Virus record (IMG/VR): IMGVR_UViG_3300032229_000040
Location: 1-56,211 of that record
Length of the DNA: 56,211 nucleotides
DNA from: a virus
Reading direction: 5' to 3' (one strand)
Below the pieces are notes generated by a model, which was not told the DNA's origin, ran no database searches, and was given only the letters and a program-made list of their open reading frames with translations. Position 1 is the first letter of the stretch, and each line of letters begins with the position of its first letter. Shown here in pieces: positions 3,001 through 38,888 of this stretch. The position numbers were made by a program, and so were the translations under genes.

Positions 3001-3581
3001 TCTCCTACAAAACTTAATGATTGAGCTGGATAGTTAATTGGTGTAGATGTTACGTTTGTAACCCTACCCTTAGCATCCACTGTAATACTAGGAATAGATC
3101 CAGAATTACCATATGTACCAGGAGCACCAAATACTGTTGCTAATGTAGCAGTTACAGAACCTGGTCCGTTAGCTAATACATCACCTGTTAAATTTGAAAT
3201 ATAGTTACCTGCAGGCTGATAGCTAGTTGAATCTAAGCTACCGTCACCCTTTACAAAATCTGTTGATGTGCCACCTGTTGTAGCAAGAGCAGAGGCTTCT
3301 AATGTACCAGCAAATGCAAGTCTATAAAGACCACCTATTGTGGTATTCTGAGTTAATGCTCCACCTAACATAACTGGTTGACCAGGAGCTAGTTGTTCAA
3401 TACCATTCGTAAATATATAACCTAAACCAGCGTCTTGAAATTTTTGGTCTATTTTCTGTAGAGCAGTCTCAAGATTGTCATTGGTAGTAATGCCTGTATA
3501 CACCAAAGTGTTACCTTCGTAGAATACGCAGGTAGCATTTAGTATAACTGGACATGGTTCAGCTGAACAAGTAACATTCAT
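1..3581 (-). CDS. Large tail fibre protein, C terminus cut off by window edge
   Basis: An open minus-strand frame runs from an ATG at 3581 to the left edge, giving 1193 codons without a stop. The first about 80 residues include a segment (TTNDNLETALQKID) resembling the N termini of other tail genes in this window, which suggests a virion-attachment module. The rest is Gly/Ser/Thr/Asn-rich and repetitive: an LGYTP-type motif recurs near residues 249, 466, 652, 777 and 834, and a module of about 58 residues (NTDV...AVNGKGLITSA...GDI...LGY) occurs twice. The distal part has motifs such as NGTERMRI and GNVGIGT, common in bacteriophage fibres just before a C-terminal intramolecular chaperone domain. 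It probably adsorbs to the host surface. The chaperone would lie beyond the edge and cannot be seen. It stands alone behind its own candidate promoter. Confidence 0.85.
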   Translation of the reverse strand, partial: MNVTCSAEPCPVILNATCVFYEGNTLVYTGITTNDNLETALQKIDQKFQDAGLGYIFTNGIEQLAPGQPVMLGGALTQNTTIGGLYRLAFAGTLEASALATTGGTSTDFVKGDGSLDSTSYQPAGNYISNLTGDVLANGPGSVTATLATVFGAPGTYGNSGSIPSITVDAKGRVTNVTSTPINYPAQSLSFVGDVDGFGFTGSPVTLTLDTVNTDVYGSNNFLKFAVNGKGLITSATPVSGGDITTALGYVPVDDAIQLSINGVSQNLTANRSWNVGTVTNVAVTSGTGISASVSNPNTTPVINIVNTAPDQTVRLNAGFGISIAGSYPNFTITNDYPDLPEKVTSFSSGNLPPLFTTCVTTPTTTPTLSFALTNAAANTVFAGPDGGSGTPTYRALVTADLPPLPYITNLTGDGTASGPGSVCFTLNTVNTDVFTSETLLNIAVNGKGLITSANPTTSGDICSTLGYTPEDVANKSTCTSLGASNTLYPTQLAVKTYVDSATAGGIILQGDWNAATNTPDISGTTTTGWAWRVSVQGTTNLGGINDWHVGDLAVKSATGWVKIDNTENVTSVFGRFGTVIATTGDYLTCQVTECGNLYYTDARVRAAVGHTAPLTYNSTTGVFGITQSNTTTDGYLSSTDWNTFNNKQPALGFTPVNQTRQLTINGTTQDLSANRTWNVGTVTSVAASTSTTGVSITGSPITSSGTLGVNISTASSTCTGLLTAADWNSFNSRTSCTGTVTCVNATGTNISVTGGPITTSGTFGISLSGANVCSALGYTPYNATNPNGYTTCIGTVTSVGVVATNLNVCFSPVTTSGNICLNLTGANVCSALGYTPTQGTGTTNFLSKFTGASTIGNSQVFDNGTNVIVGNGSTDIQGRLQVTTSSGGILINSDNSNFALLFRNTASSNKLWDISTFNNDLVINEGGIASRFFMQAGGNIGIGNINPSYLLDVSGTGRFTGALTGTSATFSTNGDNITLNNPTGQYTTINFRNGGVNKGQIYWDNAANRFYVTDNLWFSSSGAATFSSSVTATSATLSNTYNGGGIGMLHLTSNGTEGGTITFEKTSGTAQKYKFGLSTTSLFIFNETAGNQPFTLTSGGNVGIGTNNPSQRLSVRSADNTSATNIARFAAENNTLAIGIGYETIRQTETGGILAFETNGTERMRITSGGLVGIGTTNPLTIFQVQSSTNRR

Positions 3582-3617
3582 ATCTATAGGTTAGGAGTGT
3601 ATTGTAAATATAACAAA

Positions 3618-3642
3618 GCGAATGTGCAGGGAACACATTCGC
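3618..3642 (-). promoter_or_regulatory. Perfect 9-bp hairpin/dyad at the predicted tail-fibre transcription start
   Basis: GCGAATGTG and CACATTCGC form a perfect inverted repeat with a 7-nt spacer. It begins at the last base of the candidate -7 element (3642-3649) of the tail-fibre gene, so it would overlap the transcription start. There is no T-run after it on either strand, so an operator or a 5'-leader hairpin fits better than an intrinsic terminator of the upstream 1667-aa gene. Confidence 0.5.
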
Positions 3643-3671
3643 AAAGTTAATGAATATAGTTTATTTTCAAT
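3642..3671 (-). promoter_or_regulatory. Candidate Bacteroidetes-type promoter for the tail fibre
   Basis: Read on the minus strand, TAACTTTG (3642-3649) matches the TAnnTTTG -7 consensus exactly. ATTG (3668-3671) sits 18 nt upstream and matches three of the four bases of the TTTG -33 element, with slightly short spacing. It lies in the only sizeable gap in this part of the window, between the 1667-aa gene and the fibre gene. Confidence 0.45.
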
Positions 3672-3716
3672 GAGTTACGATAAAGAATGCCACATAATAT
3701 AGCAATAATTCCCTAT

Positions 3717-6700
3717 TTATCTCATACGTGATTCAGCACTAACCCTGATATCTTGGGCTTTAGCGAGTTCTGGGAAGAATATAGGTAATACATCTGATTG
3801 TACTTGAGCAAATCCAGGTACAAGATTGAAGAAGTATTTAAGTGGGTGGGCTTTATCCATCATTTTTTGATCATCTGAAACATATCCGTAGGTCTCATTT
3901 ACAGTGTTAGCTATAAGTTTCTCCACCTTAGATAACATACCTAAGGATGGAAGGATGCTACCTCTTGTCATGCTCTCCATAGATGTAGGCTTATAATAGA
4001 AACTAAGTTCATCCTCAATCTTATTCATAGCCTTTAGAATATACTTATATCTATTTCTAGTTACAGGATCTAATGTTTCATCATCATCAGGAACAGCAGC
4101 CCCAGCAGCTAATACTAATGCCATCACTCCAATCAATAGTTGTAATTCTTTAAGCTCATTGGTAAGCTCAGTTCTAACTAAATCATAGAACTCTTCATCT
4201 GTAATATCAAGCTCTTCTCCAGTTTTTCTGAAGTGCTCTTCCTTTTTAGCAGCTAACATCTCATCTAGAATACGAAGACCTTCGTCTGTACCATTGATGA
4301 TATCTCTCATCTTCATGATGTTTCTAGTACCTAGCTGAGCCCAAGTCTTAACAAACAGTCTGGTTCTACCATATGACCACTCATCAAGTACTAAGTCTTT
4401 CTTAATATCTGATGCACGTAGAGACACTTGTTTAGGAATCCAGTTTTTGAACATCATGAATGAACTGAATATTGAGTCTCTTCTGTAACCAGCTTTGTTA
4501 TCAACACTCATTTGACCGTTTAGCTTTCTACCATATTCAACTACTGTTGTACGGTATTTAGCAAGTTCTTCTGTTGACACTCCAGGGATTGTTATCTTAT
4601 CTCCTTCTATTTTAACCACCTTATCAAGAGATGATGTTTCTTGTAGTTCTTTAACCCTAGCATCAAATGTCTTCTCAAGATTGCGTCTTTCAAACTCATC
4701 TAAAGTTTTGTATCTTTTTTGATCTTGCTTCTTAACATATTGTCTGATGTTCACAATCTTACCATCTACCACCATTGAGTTTTCATTCATACTCATAGCG
4801 TTAGCATATTGTAACTTTCTTTCTGGGAAAGCGTTGGTAGACATCATTACATCACTAAAGCTCCATGTACCTAACCAATCCATTAAGCCTTTCTCTTTAG
4901 CAATCTCTCTTCTTTTCTCTTCACCAATGCTTTCATTCAAAGGCATGATTAGATGTAGCAATGCTTTCTCTTCATTGGTAAGTCCTATACCAGTGGTGAT
5001 TTTTCTGTTATTAGTTCTGAATTCACCAAACTTATATCTACCACCTGCATTGATGTATGCTTGGAAGTTATAACCAAAGTAGTTGGCTACAGCAATCAAT
5101 GGCTTCAAACCAACAGCTAGACTTTGTACAAGGATGTCTGAGTTTCTAAGTCCTTTCTTAATAGATACAACCTTCTGTTGTTTCTTATCTTCGTCCTTTA
5201 TAATCTTACCAAGCACATTTCCTAAGCTAATGTTACCTAAAGAGGAAAGATCTTCTCTAAGACCATATAAGTGGTCATTGATAATAGCTTCAAATATAGA
5301 AGCATTCTTGTTTACAGAATCATCCACCTTAGGTCTATCACCTTCCCACACAATCTCACCACCTTCTAATACAATACTTCCTTTAGTTTGTTCTACCTTC
5401 TGTAATGTTAAAAGGGTGTTCTCTAGGTTCTTTGCATTCTCATATTCTAATAATGATTTAACCCATAGTGTACCCACTTTGTTTAGATCTCTAGATAGTT
5501 GATCTACAGACTTCCTACTTCTCTTGAAGTATTTAGGAATCTCTTTCTTAATCTTATTAGTCTCTGGATCTATCTTAGAAAGGTTTTGCTCTTCATCCTG
5601 TGTAGCTGTATATAAATCAGCAAAGAAATCTTTAGCTTGACCAAATACACTTCCTGTTTGAGACATCTTTTGTAAAAGACTAGCCTCAACTAATGGGAAG
5701 AATGAGTTACCTTCTCTATCTAAATAACCAGCTTTTCTAGCTCTTTTATTTAACTCTGTAAAGAATGTCCATACATCTAGAGCAGCTTTACTTTTAGCCA
5801 TCTGTTTGTACTCTGGAGAAAGATGCAGTTCATCTTTCATTGTTTCTTTAAATAGTCTGTCAAATACGTAGTCTTTGTAACCATTAAATGTATCTCTAGA
5901 TAGTTCAAGTCTGTCTCTTAACTTCTTGATTTCCATCTGTTGTTTATCGTAGTTCTCTTCAATACTCCTTGTTGTATACGTGGTCTTGTTGATGTCTTCT
6001 ATTTCAGCATCAATTATCTTCTTAACCTTATCGTTGTATTCATCTATATTAATATTTGCTAATATAAATGACTTGTCTTTATTCTCTTTAGCCTCATTAA
6101 ATTCCTTAAAGAAACTAGGATCAATCTTCTTGATTAGCTGTAAACCTGAATCAGTCACCTTACCAATCATGTTAAATGCTGTAGTTCCTCTAGCTTCTGC
6201 TTCTCTTTCTAGAGCAATTAACTTAGGTTTGAAATCATCAAGAATTTCAGCCACCTTAAGATTTATTAGGTTCTGTGATTCTAATATCAACTTAGCACCA
6301 AGTCTAATAATCTTAGCTGGAAGATCAAGAGCTTCTGAAAATGTTCTAGCAAGAAACCCTACTTCTTTCTCAGCATCTAATATTGTACCTGCTTTTTCTT
6401 TTGTTACAATTTTCTCTTTTACAGCAAGTTGTAGAGTGTATTCCTTTTGTAAGTCAAGAATCTTACCTAACATTCTCTTTGTTACAGAAGCCTGGTGTTC
6501 TAGGCTAGCTAATACATTAAGATCCTCCTTACTCAATCCTTCTTTAGGAAACTGAGAAAGGAATATTGAATCTAGGTTGGTAAACTTCTTAGCACTATTC
6601 TCGTAAGATAGTAGTTCTTGAAGTTTAGCTTTTACTTCATCTGCAGAAAGAGTGTCATAGTTTAAGTTCTCAAATCCTTTAATAACTTCAGCAGAGTTTC

Positions 6701-8720
6701 TTAAAAACGTATCACCTACAGCAGCTAATGGGGCAAAGTCTAAGTTAACGTGTAAGCTACGTATTGCAATACTTAGTTGTTCTAGTTGTCTTCTCTTAGT
6801 ACTTTCTTTCTCAGGAGCAACTTGGATCTTACGTAATTTATCATACTGAGCTCTTAATGCACCTAATAACTTATCTACAGCTGGATTACCTGTAAGTTCT
6901 GATGTTACAGGAACAGGTAGTGTATATATTGAATTTAACTTAGGATTTGTAGGATCTCCCACTTCTAATGTTGTAAGCACTAGAGGACTCTTCTTATCTC
7001 CAACAATAGCATGATTATATCCTGTTACGAAAGGAATCATCCTAGCTTGTCTGATATCTTTAGTCTTTACACCATATTGGTTTGCAATGATGGTGTATTC
7101 ATTCATTTGAGCATTCCATTCTTTCTGTTTGAAGAATGGTATATCTTCTGATTTAGCTCTATCTATATTAGCAAACTTCCAGTCAAGAATGTCTAGCTTA
7201 GCAGATCCATCTTCTTGAGGTATGATAGCTGCAAAGTCTATTGTAGAAGCCATCATTCCCTTCACCTTTGTATTAACAACCTTCTTCTCAATAAGGAATC
7301 TAGTTCCATTAGGATAGGAGTTAATTAAGTTCTCAGCAAAGATTTGTAATTTCTCCTGGATGTCAGGATTTAATTTAGATTGAATAGCTACGTATGACTT
7401 AGGTTTCTTATAACCATTCTTATCGATAAGATTAGTTGTAATGAACTTATCAAGAAAGTTGTGTCCTTCAGATCCCCAATCTTTCTTCATATCATCTTGA
7501 ACCTTCTGAGCTGTAGTTCTTTCATAAGGAACATCACCCTTGGTCATCTCAGTTACAGTCATTGCAACTCTTTCTCCATCATATTTATAATGTCTCTTAT
7601 CAGTGGCAGTAGCAAGAAACGGTCCTGTTATTTTATTAGCTTCTGTAATAAACTTATTATAGATTTCATCTACAATATCATTCTTAACCTGATAGAAGGT
7701 TCCTTCTTGACTAATGTCTGATACAGTACCTCCTACATCACCAGCAGCAATTTTACTAGCAGCAGTTTGGAATATGTCAATGTTTGATTTACCATATAAT
7801 CCTCTAATGAAATCAAGGATGGTATCCCACCACACACTAACTAGAGATCTATCTTCTTCTTTCATTAACTCAGGGAACTCTGTAGAGCCTTCTGAATTGT
7901 TAACAATAAGCTCAGCAATCAACTTATCTACGGCTTCCTTCTTAATCTTACGAATATCAGGCTTACCATTAGCTAACTGGTAGTTCTTATTGTTCTTGTA
8001 TTTCTCTAATGTTGTTTTATAAATCTTGAATCTGTCTATCTTAGAAATCATAGACGTAACTAATTGAGGATTAGTTTGTTCCAATATAGCTGTAGCTAAG
8101 TGGACCATCTCCTCTGTAAGAGCAACATCTTCCATTCCCTGGGCAACAGCTATTACACCTTTAGTTAAATCAGCCACACCATTAATAGACTTAGTATCTA
8201 GTCCTACACTCTTAGCATAGTCAGCTAAGTCTTGTATGGATATACCCATTTGTCTAGCAGCATTCCTTACAAGCTCTAATGTTTCTTTAGATGCTTTAGA
8301 ACCAGTTGCTTCTTCTAGTTGAAAATCTAAATTGGTGTTTGGTGTAAATGTATTTTCATATTCACCAATATCAAATGTCTTACCTGTTTTTGTAAAACCA
8401 TTTTGTAAAAGTGTTGTAAGAGGTATGTTAAAGATAGGATCAATTCCACCTAGTACAACAGTTCCTTTACCTACAGGATCAAGATTGTATACAGGAATAC
8501 TATCAAGAGACTCTAGTCTTTCAGTAGCTGATTGATCACCATCTTCATAAATTGCTAATTGTGCTTCTCCTGTAACTAATTGAGAACCAATCACATTAGC
8601 ATTATGAACCATGTATTCAACACCACCATAATCTATAATCTCGCCTTCCTTAGGAATATATTTTTCAATAAATTCCTTTTCTGGCATTTGCGTATTGTTA
8701 TATGTTATTAGACAACTCAT
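3717..8720 (-). CDS. Giant virion cargo-like protein with RecB/Cas4-type PD-(D/E)XK nuclease motifs and a degenerate zincin-like segment
   Basis: 1667 aa. Residues 419-542 carry an ordered set of motifs typical of RecB/Cas4-like nucleases: GHxxL at 419, E478 in FLIEKKV, D495 in TIDF, D513-x-K515 in ILDWK, and Q538-x3-Y542. Just before this, EEMVH at 203-207, followed by a KEAVDKLIAEL helix near 261 and a hydrophobic WDTILDFIRGLY segment, parallels the zincin region of the neighbouring 4144-aa protein, but the first HExxH histidine is Glu. The middle is helical and charged. LIGVMALVLAAGAA at 1529-1542 is a potential membrane segment. The start overlaps the stop of the polymerase gene (TAATG), so they are translationally coupled. 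By position it is likely a virion protein ejected with DNA; this is inferred. The nuclease call rests on motifs only. Confidence 0.7.
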   Translation of the reverse strand: MSCLITYNNTQMPEKEFIEKYIPKEGEIIDYGGVEYMVHNANVIGSQLVTGEAQLAIYEDGDQSATERLESLDSIPVYNLDPVGKGTVVLGGIDPIFNIPLTTLLQNGFTKTGKTFDIGEYENTFTPNTNLDFQLEEATGSKASKETLELVRNAARQMGISIQDLADYAKSVGLDTKSINGVADLTKGVIAVAQGMEDVALTEEMVHLATAILEQTNPQLVTSMISKIDRFKIYKTTLEKYKNNKNYQLANGKPDIRKIKKEAVDKLIAELIVNNSEGSTEFPELMKEEDRSLVSVWWDTILDFIRGLYGKSNIDIFQTAASKIAAGDVGGTVSDISQEGTFYQVKNDIVDEIYNKFITEANKITGPFLATATDKRHYKYDGERVAMTVTEMTKGDVPYERTTAQKVQDDMKKDWGSEGHNFLDKFITTNLIDKNGYKKPKSYVAIQSKLNPDIQEKLQIFAENLINSYPNGTRFLIEKKVVNTKVKGMMASTIDFAAIIPQEDGSAKLDILDWKFANIDRAKSEDIPFFKQKEWNAQMNEYTIIANQYGVKTKDIRQARMIPFVTGYNHAIVGDKKSPLVLTTLEVGDPTNPKLNSIYTLPVPVTSELTGNPAVDKLLGALRAQYDKLRKIQVAPEKESTKRRQLEQLSIAIRSLHVNLDFAPLAAVGDTFLRNSAEVIKGFENLNYDTLSADEVKAKLQELLSYENSAKKFTNLDSIFLSQFPKEGLSKEDLNVLASLEHQASVTKRMLGKILDLQKEYTLQLAVKEKIVTKEKAGTILDAEKEVGFLARTFSEALDLPAKIIRLGAKLILESQNLINLKVAEILDDFKPKLIALEREAEARGTTAFNMIGKVTDSGLQLIKKIDPSFFKEFNEAKENKDKSFILANINIDEYNDKVKKIIDAEIEDINKTTYTTRSIEENYDKQQMEIKKLRDRLELSRDTFNGYKDYVFDRLFKETMKDELHLSPEYKQMAKSKAALDVWTFFTELNKRARKAGYLDREGNSFFPLVEASLLQKMSQTGSVFGQAKDFFADLYTATQDEEQNLSKIDPETNKIKKEIPKYFKRSRKSVDQLSRDLNKVGTLWVKSLLEYENAKNLENTLLTLQKVEQTKGSIVLEGGEIVWEGDRPKVDDSVNKNASIFEAIINDHLYGLREDLSSLGNISLGNVLGKIIKDEDKKQQKVVSIKKGLRNSDILVQSLAVGLKPLIAVANYFGYNFQAYINAGGRYKFGEFRTNNRKITTGIGLTNEEKALLHLIMPLNESIGEEKRREIAKEKGLMDWLGTWSFSDVMMSTNAFPERKLQYANAMSMNENSMVVDGKIVNIRQYVKKQDQKRYKTLDEFERRNLEKTFDARVKELQETSSLDKVVKIEGDKITIPGVSTEELAKYRTTVVEYGRKLNGQMSVDNKAGYRRDSIFSSFMMFKNWIPKQVSLRASDIKKDLVLDEWSYGRTRLFVKTWAQLGTRNIMKMRDIINGTDEGLRILDEMLAAKKEEHFRKTGEELDITDEEFYDLVRTELTNELKELQLLIGVMALVLAAGAAVPDDDETLDPVTRNRYKYILKAMNKIEDELSFYYKPTSMESMTRGSILPSLGMLSKVEKLIANTVNETYGYVSDDQKMMDKAHPLKYFFNLVPGFAQVQSDVLPIFFPELAKAQDIRVSAESRMR

Positions 8721-11700
8721 TATCCCTTACATTTTTTATCTATAATATTATTATCTCTTAAAGCATTTACCACATCTGTAGGCTTTGTAGAAGCGGTTAT
8801 TCCAGGTGTTGAATCAATCTCTGGTAATAGGTTAAGAATAGTAGTATCCTCCACCTCTTTCACCTTAATATATCCATTATCAAGCACAGATTGTTGTCCT
8901 GTTGTTACATTAGGATTTGCTGGATCCTCTGTATCATAAAGCTCATTAGCTCTAAAGCTATCTCCCCATGCATTGATTGCTTTGTAAACATAAGATGTAT
9001 AGGTTTTACCACTCTTATCTTCAGTGGTAAGTTGGATTGGGTTACCAAATCCATCTTCTACTCTCTTGAATAACCCTTTGTTGATATAAGAATAGTCACT
9101 CTTCTTTCTCATTGTAGCCTTTTGCTCTTTGGTAAAGTTACCCTTTTCCCATACAAAGGTAATGAATTTTGAGTTTCCTTCCCTAGATAATGTAGAAATA
9201 TTTAGTGTTTGAGGTATTAAACCTTTTTGAGTTGCTAATGCAAGTCTCCTGTCTACAAAGTTTATCTCTGAAGGAGAGTAAGGTCTTGAGAACCAGTTTC
9301 CTTTTTTACTCTTTTTCCAAGCTGCTTTCTTAGAAGGAACAATGTCTGTATCAGCCCAGTTGTTTCTTTGTAATACGTTTAACTTATTGAAATTGTTTAA
9401 GTTAGGCATCTTGTCTATCTTAGATAGAGTTTCATTATAAACAGCTGTGAAGTCTTCATAAGGAAGCAAAGATGTAATTGATATAGGTGAATTGTTTAAG
9501 CCAGACTGTAATACAGCAAGTCTTACTAATTTACCATATAGCTCAGTAGAAACATTTCTTTTTAGCTCACGGAAAGCATAGATGATTTGGTTTTGGTTAT
9601 ACACCTTAGCATCTTTACCTACCAAGAATATGTTATCTGGAGCACCTTCTCTTGTACCTGGTTTCTTTTGTATTGAATTGATAATCAAGTTGTCAAATAG
9701 AGGATGTGTCTTATCAGCTAACACCATGTTCTTATAATCCATGATTAATGTAGCAGCACTCTTTGTCGTATCATTTCCTAATAAGATGCTAGTAATACGT
9801 CTATTTACACCTGTATCAGTTTGTACAGCCCAGTCAAATAGATCGTTAACTGTCTTTCTAGCTAGCTTAACAAAGTCTCTATCATTCAATTGAACAAATG
9901 GAGTGAGAGCTTCCTCAATAACATCTCTTACAGCAGGCTTATCAGAGGTTAATATCTCTGCAAAAGCATCTCTAATATCTGTCATTGTTTCTTTTAGATA
10001 GCCTACAAAAGAGTTATTTAATATACCATCTACACCAGGTATAACATTTCCTTCATCATTTACAGATGAGAAGATTGTTCTACGAGCACTTTCTAATTGC
10101 TTTCCCTTCTTGAATATTAAAGATGGATCATTTAAAGTGGCTGTATCATAGTTAGTTCCTTGAGTAACTTGGAATAAATGGTTAGCCATTTTAGCGTATT
10201 TCAAGAACTCTTGTAGAACTAATTGTTGTTGTGCTTTTTGAGGATCAGTTAAATTATCAACATTTACACCAACCATCTTACCAAGAGCTGTCTCAGTTGG
10301 AAGTTCCGTAGCAACTACATCACCCTGTGGAGCATACTTATCCATTGTACCATCCATTAAGCTATCAATGAATAACCATGAGTAACCACTGTTTTCAAGT
10401 GAACCTAGGTAATCACGTACAATTGGTTGGTTCATGAAGTAAGCTATGGTTTGAATAGGTACCCCCACCTTAGCTAAGAACATCCATGTAGAAGCTACGT
10501 TTGGTGTAGCACCAAGCTCCATAATCCATGGACCCTTAGAGATATCCACATATCCATCAATGAACTGACCCATAATGTCAGATATAATTTCACCAGCTGT
10601 ATTCTTAATCATTGATAGGGTAGGATATTTCTTACCTTTAACCACAATTGAATTGTGTGGTAGTAATATTTTACCATCATTTGATTTTAACCAAAATCTA
10701 TCTTCTGCGTTTATAACACCATTCTCTAGGTTATCTGTATTAACGTACATAAGTGTACGTTGGTTCTGAGCGTGGTTTGTTTGGTTTACAGCAGCAATAC
10801 CAATTGCATACTTACCAGATACAAACGCTTGTCTCAAACCAGTCATGAATCTTCTGCTTAACATATTAGCTGTAGAAGAGTAATCAATCTCTGGTTTACC
10901 AAGCTTCTTATTGATGTCTTTAGCAAGATCCTTCATCTGATCTGCAGAGTTAGGTTTGATTAAGGCATTAAAGTTATATGAAGAAGTGATTAAGTTTTCT
11001 AGAGATTTGAAGTAGGCATTCTCTAAAGACTTACCATACATCTTCTCAATAAACTCTTCCTTTAGAGCAGCTTGTAAATCAGCGTCATTAAGTTTGTTTA
11101 AGTTCTTACCTGCTTTCTCTAATCTAATCATCAACGCATCTTCTACGTCTGTAGCAGTCATATCCTCACCAAACATGTTTTTAAGGATAGGAATCCACTT
11201 ATTGATTTGTTTATCTGAAGCAGTTCCTAATATAACATTTCCTAATAACTGTTGTAGGTTACCAAGTTTTTCAATCTTAGTCTCAGTTAATTCTTTTTTA
11301 TTCTTAGCAATCTCATCAAATATGTCACCAAACTTAGCTTTAGATGCCTCATCTAAACCGTAGAATGGAACTAATTTAATGTTACCTTTACCATCATCAT
11401 ATATATTCTTAAGATAGATTGACAATTTATCTATATCAAAGTCAGATCCAACTTTCTTAACAAGCTCTGAAGGAATAACCACAGAGTCACCAAGTTCCTT
11501 AGGAAGGAATTTAGCTATCTTGAACGCATCAATTGAGTTTTGTTTTTGTGAAGGAATACGGAAAGCTACACTTCTAAGTATCTCTTGTCCTTCCTCACTA
11601 CTGTTAAAAAACTCTAATAGCTCTTCATCAGACTTTTCACTACTAAACCATCTACCCACCATAATCTCACACACACGTTTACCATCTTCATTCACATAGA

Positions 11701-14700
11701 ACTTAAGATTGTTAGATGTGTACGTCATTTTACCATTAACTTCTTCAACCTTAATTTCATTACCTAATAGTGTAGAAGGAACTTGTACCTTCATACCACC
11801 ATTAACTTTAGGAGAAACAACGTTCTTATCAGCAATTGAATATAGAATGTTTCTGATTTGCTGGAATGCAGGGGTAGCTTCTAACACTACATCTCCTTTC
11901 TTAAAGCCAGCAAATGCAGCAGTTATGTTATCATTAACCTCTCTCTTTAAGATTTCATCAGATAACGTATTAATCATCTTATCTACATTATCTCTTGTTA
12001 TCTCAAAACCTTTGTCAGTTTGGGTGATACCTAACTTATTAAGAAGCATTTCATAACCATGCTTAATCTTCCATTCTAATAAGGTTTGGTTACGTTGGAT
12101 TTCTTTGTATAGATTGTTACCATTATTATAGCTAACCTTATCCTTAAGAGCGTTCCATTTAACAAAACGTTCTTCAAAATCTTCTCCTGGTTCAAAGTCT
12201 ACAGGCATACCAGCTTGCATAAAGTCTAGGGTTACTAACTTAGTAATCTGACTACCCTGAGTAACTGCAGCATTTTCCTTAGAAGGAACCTCAGACTGAA
12301 CACCCATAATATCAAAAGGAATGTTCACTATATCAGTTGGACTAACTACATCTGTATTAAACTTACCGTCTTTGTATAATTCAAACTTTTCACCTGCTCC
12401 AACCTTTCTACCTGTACCATATACAGCATAATCAATATCCTCTTCTTGCATCTTGTTATACAACTTGATAGCATCAGAATTAGGATTTAACTCATGTAAT
12501 GTACGGAATGATAATGGGAATAGGGCAAACTTATCTAATACAGCATCGTTATAGTTTTTACCATCAGCCTTGTTACCAGACACAATAGGTTTAAGAGGAG
12601 TGTAAGCACTCATTACCCCTGGGTTTTTTCTATTGTATTTCTTAAGTTCTTCCTCAGAAGCACCAGATTTAAATAGTTTCTCATAACCTACATCATGTCT
12701 ATATTGCTTTTCTTCAGCAGCATTCCAACTACTAGCTCTGATTCTGAAGTTACGGTTAGCTTTCATACTAATGTAACCACCACCATCTGTTTCTTCAAAT
12801 ATACCATATCCAGGTAAGTCACTTTTACTGAATACATCAGCTAGGGTGATTGTACGGAAGAAATCTCTAATGAAGTTTGTACGTCCAACCACATCATCTT
12901 TATCAAAACCTTCGTTGTAAACTCTATCAATAGCTTTATTCATTTCAGGTGAATTAGCTATTAATGGTTGACGTGGAGAGTTGAAGTTCTTAATACGCTT
13001 TAACTCATCCTTATATTGATATGGATCTGAATACACTAACTTATGTAACTCAATGTTAGCTATCATATAGTTAATTGCCAATCCTTTTAATTGTCTTGCT
13101 AAGATATCTTCGTCTATTATTTCATTGTTAGCAAATGCTAATCCTGATGCATCAATACCTTCTTCTGTAAATTGTATTGCACCATACTGTCTAAGCATTT
13201 GTTCAGAATCCTTAGCTTGTGCGTCAACTAAATCTTCTAAAGCTGAGTTGATTTTGCTTTCATACTTACTGTAAATAGCCTCGTTAGTCTTACCAGCTTT
13301 AACCTCAGCTACAATACTGTTATGTACATCAGCAGGAAGAATACCTTTAAAGAAACGTAAGTCTGTAGACTTTCTAGTTTTCTTTTCATCCTGTACAATA
13401 GGTCTATTCTCTCTAGAAAGGTTTAACTCAGACATGAAATATTCTTTGAATATATCATTCACAGCTTTCATACCTGTGTTCATAAGTTCCTTCTGAGATA
13501 CAAATGTTCCTAGTTTAACCATCCATTCAATAGATGCGTCCCCAGGAACTAGATTCATATAGTATCCTTCAGAGTTAAGATTGAGTTCTTGGATTAGTCT
13601 TTCTTTAGCATTGAGCTTAGAAGACTCTTTCTTCTTATTAGTTTGTTCATTTACGCTACCATCAACATAACCTGTTTTCATTATGTCTGATGTATTAGCC
13701 CTACGTGCATTGTTTTTAGGATTGAATATCTTATTCATTGTAGCAGATCCTAAAGCAAATACGTCTGTAGTTAAGTATTTGTACTTTGTATCACCAAGCT
13801 CATTGTAGTTCTTAATGTTAGAGATGATGTCATACATATCACTCATTAGGTTTGTACCAATGTATGTTTGTGTACGCTCACCATTTAAGTTGAAATATGT
13901 GCTTTCAAATTCAGGGTTCTCTAGAATAGCTTTGATAGAACCTAGTCTTAATAACTGTCCATCAATATCTAATGACTTGGTAGTCAATGCTTTAACTCCT
14001 TCCAGAGAAGATAAGCTTTCAAGAACACCCTCAGTTGCTTCTCTAAATGTAGTTAATTGATTAGGTGATAATTTCTTTCTTAGTTCCTTTGGAGTGAATG
14101 TAATACCAACCTTTTCTAAGAAAGATGTATATGTTGATAACTCATTGGAAATCAACTTAATATTTTTAATAGCAGCTTGAGATGTATACTCTTTATTAAC
14201 TGTATCATACTTAACGTATGTGTCACTAGTTCTAAGAGCAGATACAATATCTGAAGACATTTCACTTCTAGCCTGACTAGCAGCACTAGCTAATGAAGAA
14301 TCACCAATCACTACATCTCCTGTAGGAAGTGTAAACACAATCTTCACATCAGCATTCTGTCTTTTAAAAGTCTTCCAGAATGATGTAGCTAATTGTAAAT
14401 CGTATGTATTCTTTAACTGATCAAAGTCATAACCTGCAGCACTAGAAGGACGTTTTGTAATACGTTTGTATAATGCTTCATAACTAGGGTTATTAGTAGC
14501 AAGTTGTCTAAGTCTGTTAATCATATCATCTATGTTAACAGAGGTATGTAAGTTGTTCATCAATGTGATAAACACCTTGTCAGAAGGCATAAGAACAACT
14601 CCTCCCATTGAAGAACGTTTAGGTCTTGTTCCATCTTCGGTAATTTCCATAACAGGAAGTGTTCCTATCAATAACTTAATAGCACTACTTGCCTTCTTGA

Positions 14701-17700
14701 AGTTATCCATCTTTCTAGCATCCTGCCAGTCAGATTTACCAGAAGCATCTTCGTCAGTTAATATAGCTTGGTCATTCTCATCAAACTCTACAGAGTAGGT
14801 TTTAAGATACTCTTGATGTTTCTTAGTGATACTATCCCATTCTGCATCAACATTCTTGTGTAGGATGATTAGATTACTTTTGCTAAGAGCAGCTTCTTTT
14901 GCTGTAATCTCTTTTTTAGCAAGAGCATCTTCAATCATACTACCCTTCCAACGAATAAGATTTAACACTTCAGACTTTAATCTGTTGTATAACTCCTTCT
15001 TGTTTAATTCAGGAACACTGAATAAACTTTGGTTAGTTTTAGACAAGTCAGCTAATGTGCTGTATGTCATTTGTTCCATAATCTCATGCACCTGTGTAGC
15101 AGGAATCTTAGCAATACTAAATACGCTGGTGCTTGTAGCCTCAGCATCTTCAATATCTATAATACCCATTTTAGCATAAGATAGGTTAGACTCAAAAGGA
15201 ATAACTGTCTTGTAATATCCATTACCAATTCTTTCAAATAACTTCTCAGTGTTTGATTGAGCCTTAGGACCTAAGAACATTTCCTTAATAAAGCTAACTA
15301 GGTCAGCAAACATCTTTAAGATGAATGGTCTACCCTTTTCAGGCTTACTAGGAATCTTACCTGTAAGTACATAGTCTCTAAATTCTTCAGCTAAAGCCTC
15401 TTCAGCTTGCTTATATGTGGCATCTGAATAGCTTAATGTATTACCATCAGCATCTTCAAATGTACCTTTTCTTTTTTTGAATTCATCATAGATAGCGTTA
15501 CGCTCTCCCGATTCTGTAAACATTGTCATTACAGCATGGAAAATCTCGTGGTAGGCTGTACCCACCTCAGCATTCTCATAGATGTAAATAGCACCATCTC
15601 TAAACATACCCCAAGCTTGTCTACCATTAGTAGCTTGAATAACATTCTTAACTCTGTATACAGGGATGTTAGGTAGGTTAGCTTTTAACCAGCTTTCTAC
15701 TTTGTTCCAGTTTTCACCTTGGAAACTCTTAATCTCCTTAACAAGTTGTAAACGATATACATCATCACTAGGAGGATTAACAGGAGCATCATTCCACTCA
15801 TCTAAATCCTCAGCAGTTACATCCTCAGGAGTAGCTTCATTGGGAATGGTTGTTGTTTCTAATTGAGGCTTAATTGCTACAATAATTGTTGCACCCACTC
15901 TTCTCTTAACCTCATCCTCAGTCTTGTACATTTCTAATAGATTCTTAGCAGTTTGCTCATCTATTTCCATATCATTGATAGGAACTGTACCATTAGCAGC
16001 ATCGTATTTTTTACCATCAACAACAAATGTTACCTGACCTAAATCTCTAGGAAGAACAAGTGTGTTAACAGTTTGACCATCAAGAACGTATACACCTGGA
16101 GGGCTAGTCTTTTTTGTAGATTCTGTAGACGTAACCACTGTACCAACTACATTACCTGTAACAGGATCTGTTTGTGTAACTGTAGCAGCTGTTGGTGTAG
16201 AAGTGACTACAGGTTTAACTGTAGGTAGAATAAAGTCATCAGGAGTAGATGTAAGTGTAAAATAGATGTCTTTTCTATTTATACCATCTGTATCCTTAGG
16301 CATAGGTTTTAAAGGAGTGGCTAGAGGAATTTCTTCACTAGTTCTTCCTTCAGAAGATAATAGGTATGATTGGTAGTTAGCCCACTCTTTAACTATTGGG
16401 CTACCATCTTCATTAAGTCCTGTGATTTCAAAGTAAGGATCGTTAAATGCTTTATCGTTTAACAATGTAGCATTTGTATTGTTATACATTCCTTTTAACA
16501 ATGCAAGGATTGCATCTTTACTATTCTCTAGTTCAGTAGGAGTGAAGTTAAAGTTAGCACCCTTTCCAGATATGAAAAGTTTAGTAACTTGTTGTCCATC
16601 TTCTACAACATCCTCAAACCATATGTTATTAAAACCAGGATCTTTTCTTTCTCCTGTTTGTAAGTTTTTAGCAATACCCCAATACACTGTAGACTTTAAC
16701 CATTCCATAAGAAGATAAGATCTGTCTTTCTTAACAGTTCCATCCTCCATAGCATTCTTGGATAATTGTTTAATTACCTCAAATATTGTATTGGCTTCTT
16801 TATCATTGAATTGTCTGTTGTACAACTTAACCAATCCATTAGGAAGCTTTAAGAAAACTCTACCCAATGGTGTATTAAATGTAACAGAACCTTGTGTAAT
16901 ACTTTCGTTAGTGGTAGCTATCTTAAGTACTGGGTTGTTTTCCAATTCATCATTGGTTACAAATCCAGCATCTTGTACAGATGTTCTAACACTATAGTCT
17001 TTAACCTCATTACCATTCGCATCCTTGTATGTAAAGTATTCAGGAACACCAAATGATGCTTCAATAGTTTGAGGGTCACCTAATGTTTCTTCATTAAGTC
17101 TAGCTGTTCTCCAAGCTGCATATTGTTCTCTAAGTGAAGCTTCTATGTCTTTATCAGAAGCTCTAAACATAGTCTCCACCTTACCATCGTAAGTAGCAGT
17201 TAGTTTAGATGAAGGGAAAACTTGGTATACAGCACTATTAACTAAGTCTGCTCCAGCAGGAAGAGGGTTACCAAATTCATCTACAACTGTGTAAGTTCCA
17301 TCATCATTCAATTGAACCATTACAAGAGCAATTACATCTTCAGGACTCTTAGCATATAAATGCTGTGTTAATCCTGGGATGATTTGATCTTGTGTTTTAG
17401 ATGTAACAATCATTCCACGGATAGAATCTACATTACTCATAGATGGTAATCTAAATCCAAATCTGTTAGCTCTAGCCTGATGTTCTTTACCATCATCGAT
17501 AGGAATGGTACCACCAACTACACTTTTCCAAGCCTTCTTAGCTGCTGCTTGGAAAGCACCTCCATCAATTACATTCTGAACACCTGTACCATTTGTTCCT
17601 AATAGCTCCTGTTGTAGAGCTCTATTCTTTATAAGTTTCTTTTCTTCTTCTTGTTGCTTTTTATAAGCGTCAGCTATTTCTTGGAATCTATTGACAATCA

Positions 17701-20700
17701 ATGACTTAGCTTCTAATTGTTGAGAAGTTTCATCTAGTTGTTTGTATAGATTTTCTAATTCCTCTTTAAGTTCTGCAACTGAACGCTCATTAGGAATAAC
17801 ATCTAGTTCATCAATGTTTCCTAAATCATTTTCAAACTCTGTAAGGTCTGCAAGTAAGTTAGGATTAGCTTGTAAGTAAGATTGATAGTCTGGGTATGTA
17901 CCCTTGAATTCTAAGTCTTTGTTTAAGAATTGACGTAATCCTAGTGGAGTGTATGGTAAGTTAGGATACTTAGCCTCAAACTTTCTAATTAAGTCTAATG
18001 CTAAATCCACAGCAGTTTTTAATGCACCTTCTACACTATCTACTAACTTACTGATAGAATTGATATTCTTACCAGTCTCAATGATTAAATCTTCTAGATT
18101 ACCTTGTTGCTCTTTTAATTCTTCTAAGAACTCTTTACCACCAGGAAGCTCATCAATGTTCTGAGCCATATCAGCGATATACTCTTGATTGAATTCTAGT
18201 TGTTCTTTCTCTGCTTCTAACTCTTGAATCTCAAGACGCAATTGCTCTTTCATTCTAGAGAGTCTATTAGCAGCTTTAATAGCAGCGTTTGTAGTCTTCT
18301 TAAATGTATTAGTCTTAGTTAACTCACCAGCTTTAATTTTATTCTCTAAAACAGTGAGCTCGTTAACTATCTTCTCAAATTGAGAATACTTATCTTGTAA
18401 TAGAGATTTTGTTTTGTCTAACTTATTAGAAACTTCGTCAAACAAATCATTCAACACTTTTAATCTTGCACCTCTCTTAGCTTCTGTTCTAGCATCTTGC
18501 TCAGCAGAAAAGTCAGATAAAGCTTGTTGTTGTACAGCAGTTAATTGACCAATAGGAGTGATCATAGCATTTGCAAATCCTTGCTTAGCTACAAATTGAT
18601 CCCCTGTAACCTCAATGGTTTTTACTTTTCCTTTCTTATCTTTATAGACAAATTCCAATATACCTTCCTTAGGAGAATATTGTAATCTACCTTTCACCTT
18701 GTTACCCTTACCAAAGTTAAACTCATACATGGTGTTTGCATTCTCCATGAAGAATTTAGCCTTCTTATTATTCAAAGTGTCACTCACCTTACCTAACTTA
18801 TATTCAGCTAGTTCAGCTTTAGATATATCTCTAATAGTACCATTAGACTCTTTAATCTTAATAGTACCATTTTCATTTTCTCCAAGAATAGTTAATCTAG
18901 GGAAGCTATAAACTTCTTTACCATTCTTGTCATACTTAACCACTTTACCTAAGTAGTATTCTGTACCTATCTCAATATCTTCCTCACCATCTTTAGTCTT
19001 AATTGCTACAGTTTGTTTAGGTTGATCTTCTTCCCCAGGAGCTGTTTCAGGGGTGGTGTAGTTCTGAGGAGCTTTTTTAATTTCAGAATACTCTTTTAAG
19101 AACTTATCTCTACGTTCAGTTAAGTCTTTGAGGTCTCTTAAGTTTCTTTCTAAATCAAGTTGATCATCTTCAATAATCTCTAAAGCTTTAATATCTTCTA
19201 AAGCTTTATTGAAAGCTTCTTCATCTCTAACAACATCAGCTGAAACAACACCTAAACTAGCTAAGTTACCAATTAGTTGAGGGATACGATTGTCATAATC
19301 TGCCACTTTACTTGCAGCATATATCATCTTATCCATCACCTCACTATTGTATACAAGCTTACCATCCTTATCAACTATGTTACCATAGCGTAAGTTTAAT
19401 GATTGGTATAGTGATTTAACGTTCTCTGCTGTAGCTTCAAAACCATCTAGTCTTTTTAAGTATGCTTCTCTTGTATCTCCAGCTAATGCTTTACCATCAG
19501 CTATAAGCTGACCAAATCCATCTTCTGTAGATGCAAGTGCTCTATAGTCTTCAATATCACTTCTAACTAAATCAAACCTACCGTATTTAATACGTGGAGT
19601 TAAATAGTTAATAATGTAATCAGCATCTAAGTCTTTAACATTAGCTATGTTACCTTGTTGTAACTGTTGCTCTCTTTCTTCCTGTAGTGCTACACCTCTT
19701 CTTACAGAATCAGATGTATCCTTTGTAAAGTCAGAAAGAGCTGTTTTATTAATATCTGTTATTGCTGCTGCTGTGTCAGCTCTTCTTTGGATACCTTGTG
19801 TAATGGTTCCACGAGCTTGCATGATAGCACCAGACAATCCACCAATAAGGACATTTTCCATACCCTCGTTAGTACCAATTGTTTCAGCAACTGCATTGCT
19901 CAAACTCTCCATGAAGTTACCATCATCACCCTTAAACTTCTTATTGTAGTAGTCTTGGGTACCAATAGAAATAGCATATTGTGCACCTTCTTCAAATGCT
20001 TCTGAAGGAGAGAATACTAAAGGAGCAGCTCTTTGGAATATGTTCTTAGGTTTAGCAATAAGTTTACCAGCAGCATCAACTGTGGTACTCTCGATTTCCT
20101 TTATAGTGGAATTGATAATACCCTTCTCTACTCTTGTAGCAGATCCTAATATCTTAGGGAACTGGATATAGTTAGTTGCTGTAAGTAGTGCTGTATTAAA
20201 TAAGAAAGATGTGTTACCTACGCTATCAGCAGCTGCATTAATCTTAGCTAACTCAGCTCCTGTTGGAGCAACACCACCATTAAGAGCTTTGTATTCTTCT
20301 ATCTTTTTATTTCTAAAATCATTAAGATTGTGGTAGGCTTCAAACCCAGCTTCACCAGTTGTAGCTAAACCAGCAACTAATGCTCTTTGTCCAACATCTA
20401 ATCCTCTATATGTTCCTAGGTATGCATCAGATAGGCTTTTAATTTTACCATAGGCATCACCTGCTTTGTTAGCTCCTAATAGAGCTTCTTCTGTAGCAGC
20501 TAGTACATCCCCTGCTTTTCTTACAGAGAATAGTTTTGCAACTTGAGGAATAGAGTTTAATAGTTTTAAACCAGAAGCGTATATACCCCCTGATAATGCA
20601 GCACCTGCTGCAAATCCCATATTTTTAACAATGCCATCCCAAAGAAAGTTAGCACTGAATAGTTTATCTGGAGAATACCAATCAGCATCTCTTTCTCTTT

Positions 20701-21154
20701 TTGTGTAGTAGTTAGGAAGACTATTCTCTAGTCCTTTATTAAATTCGTCAAGACTTCTATTAAATTCATTATCATAGAATGAGGCAGCTCTTTGATCAGA
20801 AAGAGATTGATATACACCATTTGCTAATCCTACAGTAGATTGTAATAGTGTTGTACCTGTTAAAGCCAGACCCTTACCAAGACTGTTAACCATTTTAGAA
20901 GACCAAGTTTGCCCTTGAGCATAAAGCTCCTCCATATCTTCTCCAGGGAATATCTTTTGGTATCTACCAGTTCCAGGTAATTCATAAGGAGATATATTAG
21001 TAAACGTGTTAGCTTTACCAATATTAGCCATCCTCTTTTCCATTAGGGCATAAGGATCTATGCTACGATCACTCGGAACACCCTCACTATGATAGTCAGG
21101 AACAATTGGGGCAATAACACCTGGTTGGTTAACTGGTTTAATTTCTTCTGCCAT
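8720..21154 (-). CDS. Giant virion RNA polymerase polyprotein (4144 aa) with zincin motif
   Basis: The polymerase signature is DFDID at 3238-3242, the metal-chelating aspartate triad of crAss-like phage virion RNA polymerases. It is preceded by FRIPSQK at 3198-3204, which aligns with the R-x-P region ahead of the DFDGD motif in the beta' double-psi barrel. A metalloprotease-like HEIFH lies at 1869-1873 with a Glu-rich helix (EEALAEEF) at 1918-1925. The N-terminal quarter has hydrophobic Gly/Ala stretches near 178-200, coiled coils near 900-1040 and 1125-1171, and a Thr/Pro linker near 1648-1681. In characterised crAss-like phages this polymerase is packaged in the virion and transcribes early genes after injection. 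The protein is about twice the length I recall for the stand-alone Cellulophaga phage polymerase, so it is a fusion of modules, or a precursor the zincin might cut. It sits between two other cargo genes. Confidence 0.88.
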   Translation of the reverse strand: MAEEIKPVNQPGVIAPIVPDYHSEGVPSDRSIDPYALMEKRMANIGKANTFTNISPYELPGTGRYQKIFPGEDMEELYAQGQTWSSKMVNSLGKGLALTGTTLLQSTVGLANGVYQSLSDQRAASFYDNEFNRSLDEFNKGLENSLPNYYTKRERDADWYSPDKLFSANFLWDGIVKNMGFAAGAALSGGIYASGLKLLNSIPQVAKLFSVRKAGDVLAATEEALLGANKAGDAYGKIKSLSDAYLGTYRGLDVGQRALVAGLATTGEAGFEAYHNLNDFRNKKIEEYKALNGGVAPTGAELAKINAAADSVGNTSFLFNTALLTATNYIQFPKILGSATRVEKGIINSTIKEIESTTVDAAGKLIAKPKNIFQRAAPLVFSPSEAFEEGAQYAISIGTQDYYNKKFKGDDGNFMESLSNAVAETIGTNEGMENVLIGGLSGAIMQARGTITQGIQRRADTAAAITDINKTALSDFTKDTSDSVRRGVALQEEREQQLQQGNIANVKDLDADYIINYLTPRIKYGRFDLVRSDIEDYRALASTEDGFGQLIADGKALAGDTREAYLKRLDGFEATAENVKSLYQSLNLRYGNIVDKDGKLVYNSEVMDKMIYAASKVADYDNRIPQLIGNLASLGVVSADVVRDEEAFNKALEDIKALEIIEDDQLDLERNLRDLKDLTERRDKFLKEYSEIKKAPQNYTTPETAPGEEDQPKQTVAIKTKDGEEDIEIGTEYYLGKVVKYDKNGKEVYSFPRLTILGENENGTIKIKESNGTIRDISKAELAEYKLGKVSDTLNNKKAKFFMENANTMYEFNFGKGNKVKGRLQYSPKEGILEFVYKDKKGKVKTIEVTGDQFVAKQGFANAMITPIGQLTAVQQQALSDFSAEQDARTEAKRGARLKVLNDLFDEVSNKLDKTKSLLQDKYSQFEKIVNELTVLENKIKAGELTKTNTFKKTTNAAIKAANRLSRMKEQLRLEIQELEAEKEQLEFNQEYIADMAQNIDELPGGKEFLEELKEQQGNLEDLIIETGKNINSISKLVDSVEGALKTAVDLALDLIRKFEAKYPNLPYTPLGLRQFLNKDLEFKGTYPDYQSYLQANPNLLADLTEFENDLGNIDELDVIPNERSVAELKEELENLYKQLDETSQQLEAKSLIVNRFQEIADAYKKQQEEEKKLIKNRALQQELLGTNGTGVQNVIDGGAFQAAAKKAWKSVVGGTIPIDDGKEHQARANRFGFRLPSMSNVDSIRGMIVTSKTQDQIIPGLTQHLYAKSPEDVIALVMVQLNDDGTYTVVDEFGNPLPAGADLVNSAVYQVFPSSKLTATYDGKVETMFRASDKDIEASLREQYAAWRTARLNEETLGDPQTIEASFGVPEYFTYKDANGNEVKDYSVRTSVQDAGFVTNDELENNPVLKIATTNESITQGSVTFNTPLGRVFLKLPNGLVKLYNRQFNDKEANTIFEVIKQLSKNAMEDGTVKKDRSYLLMEWLKSTVYWGIAKNLQTGERKDPGFNNIWFEDVVEDGQQVTKLFISGKGANFNFTPTELENSKDAILALLKGMYNNTNATLLNDKAFNDPYFEITGLNEDGSPIVKEWANYQSYLLSSEGRTSEEIPLATPLKPMPKDTDGINRKDIYFTLTSTPDDFILPTVKPVVTSTPTAATVTQTDPVTGNVVGTVVTSTESTKKTSPPGVYVLDGQTVNTLVLPRDLGQVTFVVDGKKYDAANGTVPINDMEIDEQTAKNLLEMYKTEDEVKRRVGATIIVAIKPQLETTTIPNEATPEDVTAEDLDEWNDAPVNPPSDDVYRLQLVKEIKSFQGENWNKVESWLKANLPNIPVYRVKNVIQATNGRQAWGMFRDGAIYIYENAEVGTAYHEIFHAVMTMFTESGERNAIYDEFKKRKGTFEDADGNTLSYSDATYKQAEEALAEEFRDYVLTGKIPSKPEKGRPFILKMFADLVSFIKEMFLGPKAQSNTEKLFERIGNGYYKTVIPFESNLSYAKMGIIDIEDAEATSTSVFSIAKIPATQVHEIMEQMTYSTLADLSKTNQSLFSVPELNKKELYNRLKSEVLNLIRWKGSMIEDALAKKEITAKEAALSKSNLIILHKNVDAEWDSITKKHQEYLKTYSVEFDENDQAILTDEDASGKSDWQDARKMDNFKKASSAIKLLIGTLPVMEITEDGTRPKRSSMGGVVLMPSDKVFITLMNNLHTSVNIDDMINRLRQLATNNPSYEALYKRITKRPSSAAGYDFDQLKNTYDLQLATSFWKTFKRQNADVKIVFTLPTGDVVIGDSSLASAASQARSEMSSDIVSALRTSDTYVKYDTVNKEYTSQAAIKNIKLISNELSTYTSFLEKVGITFTPKELRKKLSPNQLTTFREATEGVLESLSSLEGVKALTTKSLDIDGQLLRLGSIKAILENPEFESTYFNLNGERTQTYIGTNLMSDMYDIISNIKNYNELGDTKYKYLTTDVFALGSATMNKIFNPKNNARRANTSDIMKTGYVDGSVNEQTNKKKESSKLNAKERLIQELNLNSEGYYMNLVPGDASIEWMVKLGTFVSQKELMNTGMKAVNDIFKEYFMSELNLSRENRPIVQDEKKTRKSTDLRFFKGILPADVHNSIVAEVKAGKTNEAIYSKYESKINSALEDLVDAQAKDSEQMLRQYGAIQFTEEGIDASGLAFANNEIIDEDILARQLKGLAINYMIANIELHKLVYSDPYQYKDELKRIKNFNSPRQPLIANSPEMNKAIDRVYNEGFDKDDVVGRTNFIRDFFRTITLADVFSKSDLPGYGIFEETDGGGYISMKANRNFRIRASSWNAAEEKQYRHDVGYEKLFKSGASEEELKKYNRKNPGVMSAYTPLKPIVSGNKADGKNYNDAVLDKFALFPLSFRTLHELNPNSDAIKLYNKMQEEDIDYAVYGTGRKVGAGEKFELYKDGKFNTDVVSPTDIVNIPFDIMGVQSEVPSKENAAVTQGSQITKLVTLDFMQAGMPVDFEPGEDFEERFVKWNALKDKVSYNNGNNLYKEIQRNQTLLEWKIKHGYEMLLNKLGITQTDKGFEITRDNVDKMINTLSDEILKREVNDNITAAFAGFKKGDVVLEATPAFQQIRNILYSIADKNVVSPKVNGGMKVQVPSTLLGNEIKVEEVNGKMTYTSNNLKFYVNEDGKRVCEIMVGRWFSSEKSDEELLEFFNSSEEGQEILRSVAFRIPSQKQNSIDAFKIAKFLPKELGDSVVIPSELVKKVGSDFDIDKLSIYLKNIYDDGKGNIKLVPFYGLDEASKAKFGDIFDEIAKNKKELTETKIEKLGNLQQLLGNVILGTASDKQINKWIPILKNMFGEDMTATDVEDALMIRLEKAGKNLNKLNDADLQAALKEEFIEKMYGKSLENAYFKSLENLITSSYNFNALIKPNSADQMKDLAKDINKKLGKPEIDYSSTANMLSRRFMTGLRQAFVSGKYAIGIAAVNQTNHAQNQRTLMYVNTDNLENGVINAEDRFWLKSNDGKILLPHNSIVVKGKKYPTLSMIKNTAGEIISDIMGQFIDGYVDISKGPWIMELGATPNVASTWMFLAKVGVPIQTIAYFMNQPIVRDYLGSLENSGYSWLFIDSLMDGTMDKYAPQGDVVATELPTETALGKMVGVNVDNLTDPQKAQQQLVLQEFLKYAKMANHLFQVTQGTNYDTATLNDPSLIFKKGKQLESARRTIFSSVNDEGNVIPGVDGILNNSFVGYLKETMTDIRDAFAEILTSDKPAVRDVIEEALTPFVQLNDRDFVKLARKTVNDLFDWAVQTDTGVNRRITSILLGNDTTKSAATLIMDYKNMVLADKTHPLFDNLIINSIQKKPGTREGAPDNIFLVGKDAKVYNQNQIIYAFRELKRNVSTELYGKLVRLAVLQSGLNNSPISITSLLPYEDFTAVYNETLSKIDKMPNLNNFNKLNVLQRNNWADTDIVPSKKAAWKKSKKGNWFSRPYSPSEINFVDRRLALATQKGLIPQTLNISTLSREGNSKFITFVWEKGNFTKEQKATMRKKSDYSYINKGLFKRVEDGFGNPIQLTTEDKSGKTYTSYVYKAINAWGDSFRANELYDTEDPANPNVTTGQQSVLDNGYIKVKEVEDTTILNLLPEIDSTPGITASTKPTDVVNALRDNNIIDKKCKG

Positions 21155-38877: not shown

Positions 38878-38888
38878 ATTGTGGTTTA

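Follow-up and report, generated by a model that had tools for sequence, protein, structure and literature searches.

The locus analysed here raises the question of why a phage would carry a putative metallopeptidase motif and an RNA polymerase in one giant protein. The window, that is the whole stretch of DNA under analysis, comprises a linear virus contig of 56 kb from IMG/VR (56,211 nucleotides). An earlier note had read one of its open reading frames (ORFs) as a crAss-like single-chain polymerase preceded by a zincin-type HEIFH motif, had offered two readings, a precursor cut by the zincin to free the polymerase and a permanent multi-domain cargo, and had called for predicted structures of both parts to be compared with known zincins and polymerases. 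The ORF proved to be real: it encodes 4144 amino acids on the minus strand at 8720-21154, and HEIFH and DFDID lie where the note had placed them; the counts expected from composition in a protein of this length are 0.006 for HExxH and 0.05 for DFDxD. Its parts are as follows.

8720..21154, minus strand: fused ORF of 4144 aa, ATG to stop, with an N-terminal part (N-part), a zincin-like domain and, as judged by profile and fold, a crAss-like virion RNA polymerase
15773..21154, minus strand: N-part, residues 1-1794, with blastp homology to phi14:2 g067 and crAss001 gp47, a packaged cargo protein
15155..15772, minus strand: zincin-like domain, residues ~1795-2000, at the joint between N-part and polymerase, from a 65-row alignment and a model
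15536..15550, minus strand: HEIFH, residues 1869-1873, a motif in the translation
15398..15403, minus strand: E1918 and E1919, from the alignment, E1919 being invariant and a candidate third ligand
8825..15127, minus strand: polymerase part, residues ~2010-4110, from the 6vr4 profile match and the model and fold match of residues 2560-3700, its start near residue 2010 being placed by comparison with the split relative L020
11552..11560, minus strand: R-x-P element, R3199-x-P3201, upstream of DFDID
11429..11443, minus strand: DFDID catalytic motif, residues 3238-3242, in the translation

PHROG matches identify a crAss-type portal, large terminase subunit (TerL) and MCP in the window. The best matches of the TerL are Leptolyngbya phage Lbo-JY46 (40%), Cellulophaga phi17:2 (32%) and crAss-like phages, and these crAss-type genes, taken together with the transcription block, place the virus in the Crassvirales or a close relative. 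Elsewhere on the contig, an SPFH/Band 7 protein (47368-47898, Pfam E=6e-27) adjoins the portal gene, which is odd within a structural block; structural proteins at 29681-34819, 38359-38922 and 41368-42510 contain long Thr/Ser-rich runs (TTTTTTT..); and a 511-aa protein (27268-28803) has three GGWLNKY/F repeats and a CxCG..CxxC start.

The assignment of the polymerase held up well. Compared as a whole with Pfam, NCBIfam and PHROGs, the protein yielded just one weak RNAP beta match (E=0.0045), and phmmer against the PDB returned none; a profile of 50 relatives, from which phi14:2 was left out, did find the phi14:2 polymerase, 6vr4, at E=6.9e-150 over 6vr4 residues 708-1775. The C-terminal part also matched phi14:2 gene 66 in tblastn (1e-16). 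A model of residues 2560-3700 (pLDDT 87.2, pTM 0.86) has the two-barrel single-chain fold of 6vr4 and of QDE-1, an RNA-interference polymerase, and these were its two leading solved Foldseek matches (E=1.2e-28 and E=5e-5, respectively). GxDFDxDK and the R-x-P element are invariant in eight diverse members, namely phi14:2, crAss001, cr118, cr50, cr106, the window and two relatives. On the combined grounds of profile, motifs and predicted fold, the C-terminal part is a crAss-like virion RNA polymerase, and its membership in this family is established. The polymerase homologues of phi14:2 and crAss001 are packaged in the virion and injected (PMC7886860, PMC10172136), and by analogy the same would hold for the window polymerase.

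The remainder of the ORF is related to a second cargo protein. In blastp, residues 61-508 align with g067 of phi14:2 (L032) and residues 82-1967 with gp47 of crAss001 (L031), whose genes adjoin or stand near the polymerase gene in these phages, and gp47, gp49 and gp50 have been reported by mass spectrometry in crAss001 virions (PMC10172136). By these alignments, the ORF is a fusion, in one frame, of two cargo genes, one of the gp47/g067 family and one of the gp50/g066 polymerase family. The earlier note had considered its length and domain order unusual, which did not survive the comparison: the order is that of the adjacent g067 and g066 of phi14:2, and the fusion is present in 81 of 148 classifiable representatives as well as in Suoliviridae (cr118_1, 4946 aa; cr50_1, 4774 aa). 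By homology, such a fusion is not unusual within the crAss-like group, and the joining of a virion polymerase to a zincin is already a known kind. Some polymerase ORFs (L137, L163 and L114 15380-15671) are interrupted within the gene and have no cysteine at the break; introns, frameshifts or assembly errors are possible causes, and in cr108_1 the gap falls within the GSD/FDID motif.

When the ends of these proteins were compared, a regularity emerged: polymerase ORFs end in a cysteine, and the next protein starts with M-x-C. The window protein has two cysteines in 4144 residues, one of which, C4142, lies two residues before the last. The features concerned are these.

8729..8731, minus strand: C-end cysteine C4142, in the ORF tail ..IIDKKCKG stop
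3717..8720, minus strand: partner of 1667 aa, homologue of phi14:2 g065 and crAss001 gp49 (gp49 HMM, E=2.9e-195)
8712..8714, minus strand: partner Cys3 (MSC..), its only cysteine and the proposed coupling mate of C4142
21158..23977, minus strand: 939-aa ORF without cysteine, just before the fusion; to judge from its position, probably an outer neighbour that is not Cys-coupled

We followed this regularity through ~170 relatives, which form 175 clusters at 85% identity, with start codons assigned by pattern. At 140 of 143 boundaries between polymerase and partner, cysteines are present on both sides, and the three exceptions comprise one partner with its cysteine at position 9 and two interrupted ORFs. 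All polymerases with a separate gp49-type partner have the C-end cysteine (158/158), and none of those fused to the partner do (0/9; fusions defined by a gp49 HMM match in the C-terminal half, with four broken ORFs set aside). At the boundary between N-part and polymerase, 44 genomes have both cysteines, 65 neither, and 3 are mixed. Independent contrasts of the fused or split state with cysteine came out at 6-0 and 5-0 on a FastTree of a 400-aa core, parts of which are weak. In 159 of 171 polymerases a cysteine occupies one of the nine C-end positions, compared with an inner frequency of 0.04%; exactly one cysteine, at the C-end, is found in 37 of 41 N-parts, and exactly one in 82 of 106 gp49-type proteins. 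The outer ends of the block are nearly devoid of them (0/41 N-part starts, 3/106 gp49-type ends), and the complete triple fusions L194 and L246, of ~5500 aa each, have no cysteine at all. In L123 and L220, the polymerase head bears a cysteine with no Cys-ended neighbour upstream. Since the control ORFs include shadow ORFs, we place the weight on the cysteine frequencies within proteins and on the contrasts between fused and split genes. Across the family, these counts demonstrate, at the level of sequence, that cysteines sit where the proteins of the block meet and are absent where the meeting point is a peptide bond. The literature searched contained no description of such a rule, nor a paper linking Crassvirales, cysteine and RNA polymerase.

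Natural rearrangements of the block offer tests of the rule. In six loci (L031, which is crAss001, L116, L203, L205, L209 and L222) the N-part is encoded on the opposite strand and is Cys-ended all the same, so that neighbouring genes are not the cause of the end cysteines. Many of the genes adjoin one another or share a few bases, which would suit an origin of the cysteines in gene overlap or coupled translation and not in protein function; the opposite-strand cases, together with the use of both TGT and TGC codons for the end cysteine, largely refute an overlap origin, and we rejected it as extremely improbable. In the clade of L175, L261, L272 and L280, the polymerase itself is split into two proteins, at profile position ~476-485 as shown for L261 and L280, and a cysteine pair (..KKCD stop / MACQ..) marks the break, the two genes lying ~500 bases apart. 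In L020 (8369-8500 and 14818-14950), a fused gene has recently been split, identity to L023 being 67% on one side of the break and 63% on the other; the start module of its second protein is 61% identical to the head of its own gp49-type protein (E=3e-14), so that a copy of this partner head module (MGVCPNIKLPEWKRLV..) has taken the place of the zincin-like region. The rule extends to phi17:2, where DFDxD was not recognised: gp039 has its sole cysteine at position 1957 of 1957, gp038 has cysteines at 4 and 516 of 517, and gp036 at 3. A chain may thus exist without a standard polymerase, the middle protein of phi17:2 being only 517 aa long. In crAssE-Sib, the sole cysteine of a 2208-aa protein is its last residue. 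For crAss001, the predicted coupled ends are gp47 CNS with gp50 CITTNSTIEELAAK, and gp50 ICGANTLYEL with gp49 CAIIPQVR.

Three-protein end-cysteine patterns without a recognised DFDxD are seen at L281 20996-34500 (phi17:2) and L283 3401-12909 (crAssE-Sib). Lbo-JY46 (L121 2355-15261) has a 1552-aa protein with its sole cysteine last, followed by a 2748-aa protein with its sole cysteine at position 4; this second protein contains HExxH twice, and no DFDxD was found in it.

What might these cysteines do? We think it rather probable that the window encodes a virion-packaged fusion, and that N-part, polymerase and gp49-type protein are joined into a single chain, held together by peptide bonds or by cysteine couplers. 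We also lean, a little less firmly, towards the broader picture of a train of giant, nearly cysteine-free proteins around the polymerase, hitched by terminal cysteines, exchangeable with fusion and threaded through the tail in order. The three proteins would act as a single linear chain; where it is in pieces, the C-end cysteine of one piece would couple to the N-end cysteine of the next, and where pieces are fused, the peptide bond would replace this coupling. In the window phage, the mate of C4142 would be Cys3 of the downstream 1667-aa protein. The simplest and probable chemistry is a disulfide formed in the virion; this is plausible since disulfides link subunits at other sites of the crAss001 virion, in tail and vertex (PMC10172136). 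Packing of the chain and its passage through the narrow tail would follow a fixed order, and the polymerase would then refold in the host and transcribe early genes. As assembly takes place in a reducing cytoplasm, such a bond would need to be made late or be protected. The small number of independent switches in evolution (6 and 5) weighs against this explanation.

Terminal cysteines could also bind a metal or another partner. They might jointly hold a metal ion, or tether each protein to some third structure, the portal or the tail for example, as would be in keeping with their conservation in nearly all genomes and with the variable sequences around them, which leave room for the cysteine alone to matter. 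We regard this as unlikely: the outer chain ends lack cysteines and both cysteines vanish upon fusion, which a mutual pair explains better, and a single cysteine on each side is little for a metal site that has no further conserved ligands. Tails and heads co-vary significantly beyond polymerase relatedness (partial Mantel r=0.11, 0 of 999 permutations), a signal that is inseparable from DNA linkage and may reflect it; a test of whether the two junction heads of one genome are orthogonal to each other gave no signal either way.

The chain explanation leaves the role of the zincin-like domain to be considered. The HEIFH motif and the Glu-rich helix after it, which the earlier note had described, are borne out by alignment and model: the window has a gluzincin-type HExxH with a downstream Glu (H1869, E1870, H1873 and E1919), and all 65 aligned domains share G-x-x-Y-H-E, E1919 and E1923. 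The domain model (pLDDT 72.6) consists of a helix, three strands, the HExxH helix, an insert and a Glu-bearing helix, in agreement with the order of helix, three strands, HExxH helix and Glu helix in phage-type zincin MPTases (PMC5512222). The predicted topology is compatible with that of phage zincins, but no solved zincin was matched, the best PDB hit reaching no better than E=0.97; fold matches among viral proteins were crAss proteins, with IrrE and lethal factor matched weakly, and among curated families neither Pfam M78, MPTase-PolyVal nor other Pfam zincin families matched the domain. It may already be mentioned in Yutin 2018 and Drobysheva 2021. A stretch in L020 (15622-16311, GTKYHEFFED), tried as a relocated zincin, was dropped; it resembles a PD-(D/E)XK nuclease motif in a gp49-type protein. 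Two HExxH motifs each are present in phi14:2 g070 (L032 30361-32142) and phi17:2 gp042 (L120 10151-12370), both annotated as tail proteins.

While the position of HExxH is conserved, its second His is not: among deduplicated sequences, leaving out one unrelated nuclease match, it is Glu in 57 and His in 22. The residue before the invariant Glu (E1918 in the window) is Lys or Arg in 57/57 HExxE sequences, and in the 22 HExxH sequences it is Glu in 17, Asp in 2, Lys in 2 and Asn in 1. The switch between the two states needs 10 changes on the polymerase tree; in six independent pairs on well-supported branches both residues switch together, and the covariation of H1873 with E1918 is the strongest with that column. 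We also observe a Lys four residues after HExxE, and the two states interchange repeatedly. From these patterns, a salt bridge could have taken the place of the metal site in domains that have HExxE with Lys or Arg; alternatively, metal binding may be altered.

The reading of the ORF as a self-cutting precursor, in which an active zincin metalloprotease would free the polymerase by a cut close to the joint while the virion assembles or ejects its cargo, has several observations in its favour. The domain is located at the joint, all 65 sequences have its first His, general base Glu and third Glu, and the window, crAss001 gp47 and cr118_1 retain HExxH plus Glu; moreover, the domain was not recognised in phi14:2 g067 or g066, nor in L020, whose parts are separate genes. 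Zincin processing of polyvalent proteins has been proposed, and autoproteolysis of P1 DdrB was inferred by Iyer et al. (PMC5512222). Yet most fused relatives carry HExxE and the change of Glu to Lys or Arg, though these HExxE domains may have retained activity; in crAss001 the domain is retained although gp47 has a gene of its own; the virion RNAP of N4, whose domain is comparable, is reported to enter the virion unprocessed (PMC5512222); and chain breaks bear cysteine pairs instead of loose ends. Furthermore, fused chains are common, so that there seems to be no need to cut the polymerase free, which argues against a precursor. Of the two readings in the earlier note, the permanent multi-domain cargo is therefore the one we favour, and a zincin-cut precursor appears quite improbable.

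A further possibility is that the domain is an injected effector with targets among the host's proteins, or a structural element that is largely non-catalytic, the fusion itself having no special meaning. The domain is patchy, not being recognised in 104 of 175 representatives, the concerted HExxE/K swaps suggest changed or lost metal chemistry, and injected zincin effectors are among the options raised in PMC5512222. We consider this possible, though on balance not the likelier course; it leaves the cysteine rule unaccounted for and is compatible with the chain explanation. Within the cargo chain that we prefer, the zincin-like domain is probably an accessory domain near the joint and not a release protease, and its repeated switch from HExxH to HExxE/K poses a second, smaller puzzle about its role.

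Crass-like phages are the dominant viruses of the human gut, and they have to pack several giant proteins and deliver them in the right order through tail constrictions of <50 Å. The published model takes the cargo proteins to be separate and partly unfolded (PMC10172136). From the end-cysteine rule comes a simple and directly testable answer, namely that the proteins travel as one chain; the polymerase-zincin fusion would then be one of several interchangeable ways of keeping this chain whole, and the end cysteines would serve as a sequence signature for chain members in unannotated phages, even where no polymerase motif is recognisable.

Among known systems, the zincin-like MPTases of polyvalent proteins (PMC5512222) share the predicted topology of the domain described here, which differs from them in matching no Pfam family and in the frequency of HExxE/K. 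The virion RNAP of N4 (Schitoviridae) and gp96 of P23-45 resemble the window protein in combining a packaged RNAP with a zincin- or metallopeptidase-type domain (PMC5512222, PMC12633501, PMC10770324), but the N4 enzyme is of another RNAP type with its zincin C-terminal, and that of P23-45 is fused to a tape-measure protein; a term search of these three papers found no end-cysteine chain. Other close systems lie within the crAss-like group. Phi14:2 gp66 (6vr4) belongs to the same polymerase family and has the same neighbours, g067 and g065, but is a stand-alone 2180-aa gene with cysteines at both ends, unlike the window polymerase, which is fused to its N-part. CrAss001 has homologues of all three proteins (gp47, gp50 and gp49), a zincin-like HEAFH domain in gp47 and the end cysteines, but encodes them in three separate genes, with gp47 on the opposite strand. 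Fused proteins of the Suoliviridae such as cr118_1 gp14 and cr50_1, annotated as exonuclease V / DNA helicase and ~20-35% identical to the window protein in matched stretches, share with it the fusion order, HExxH, DFDID, the C-end cysteine and the M-x-C partner.
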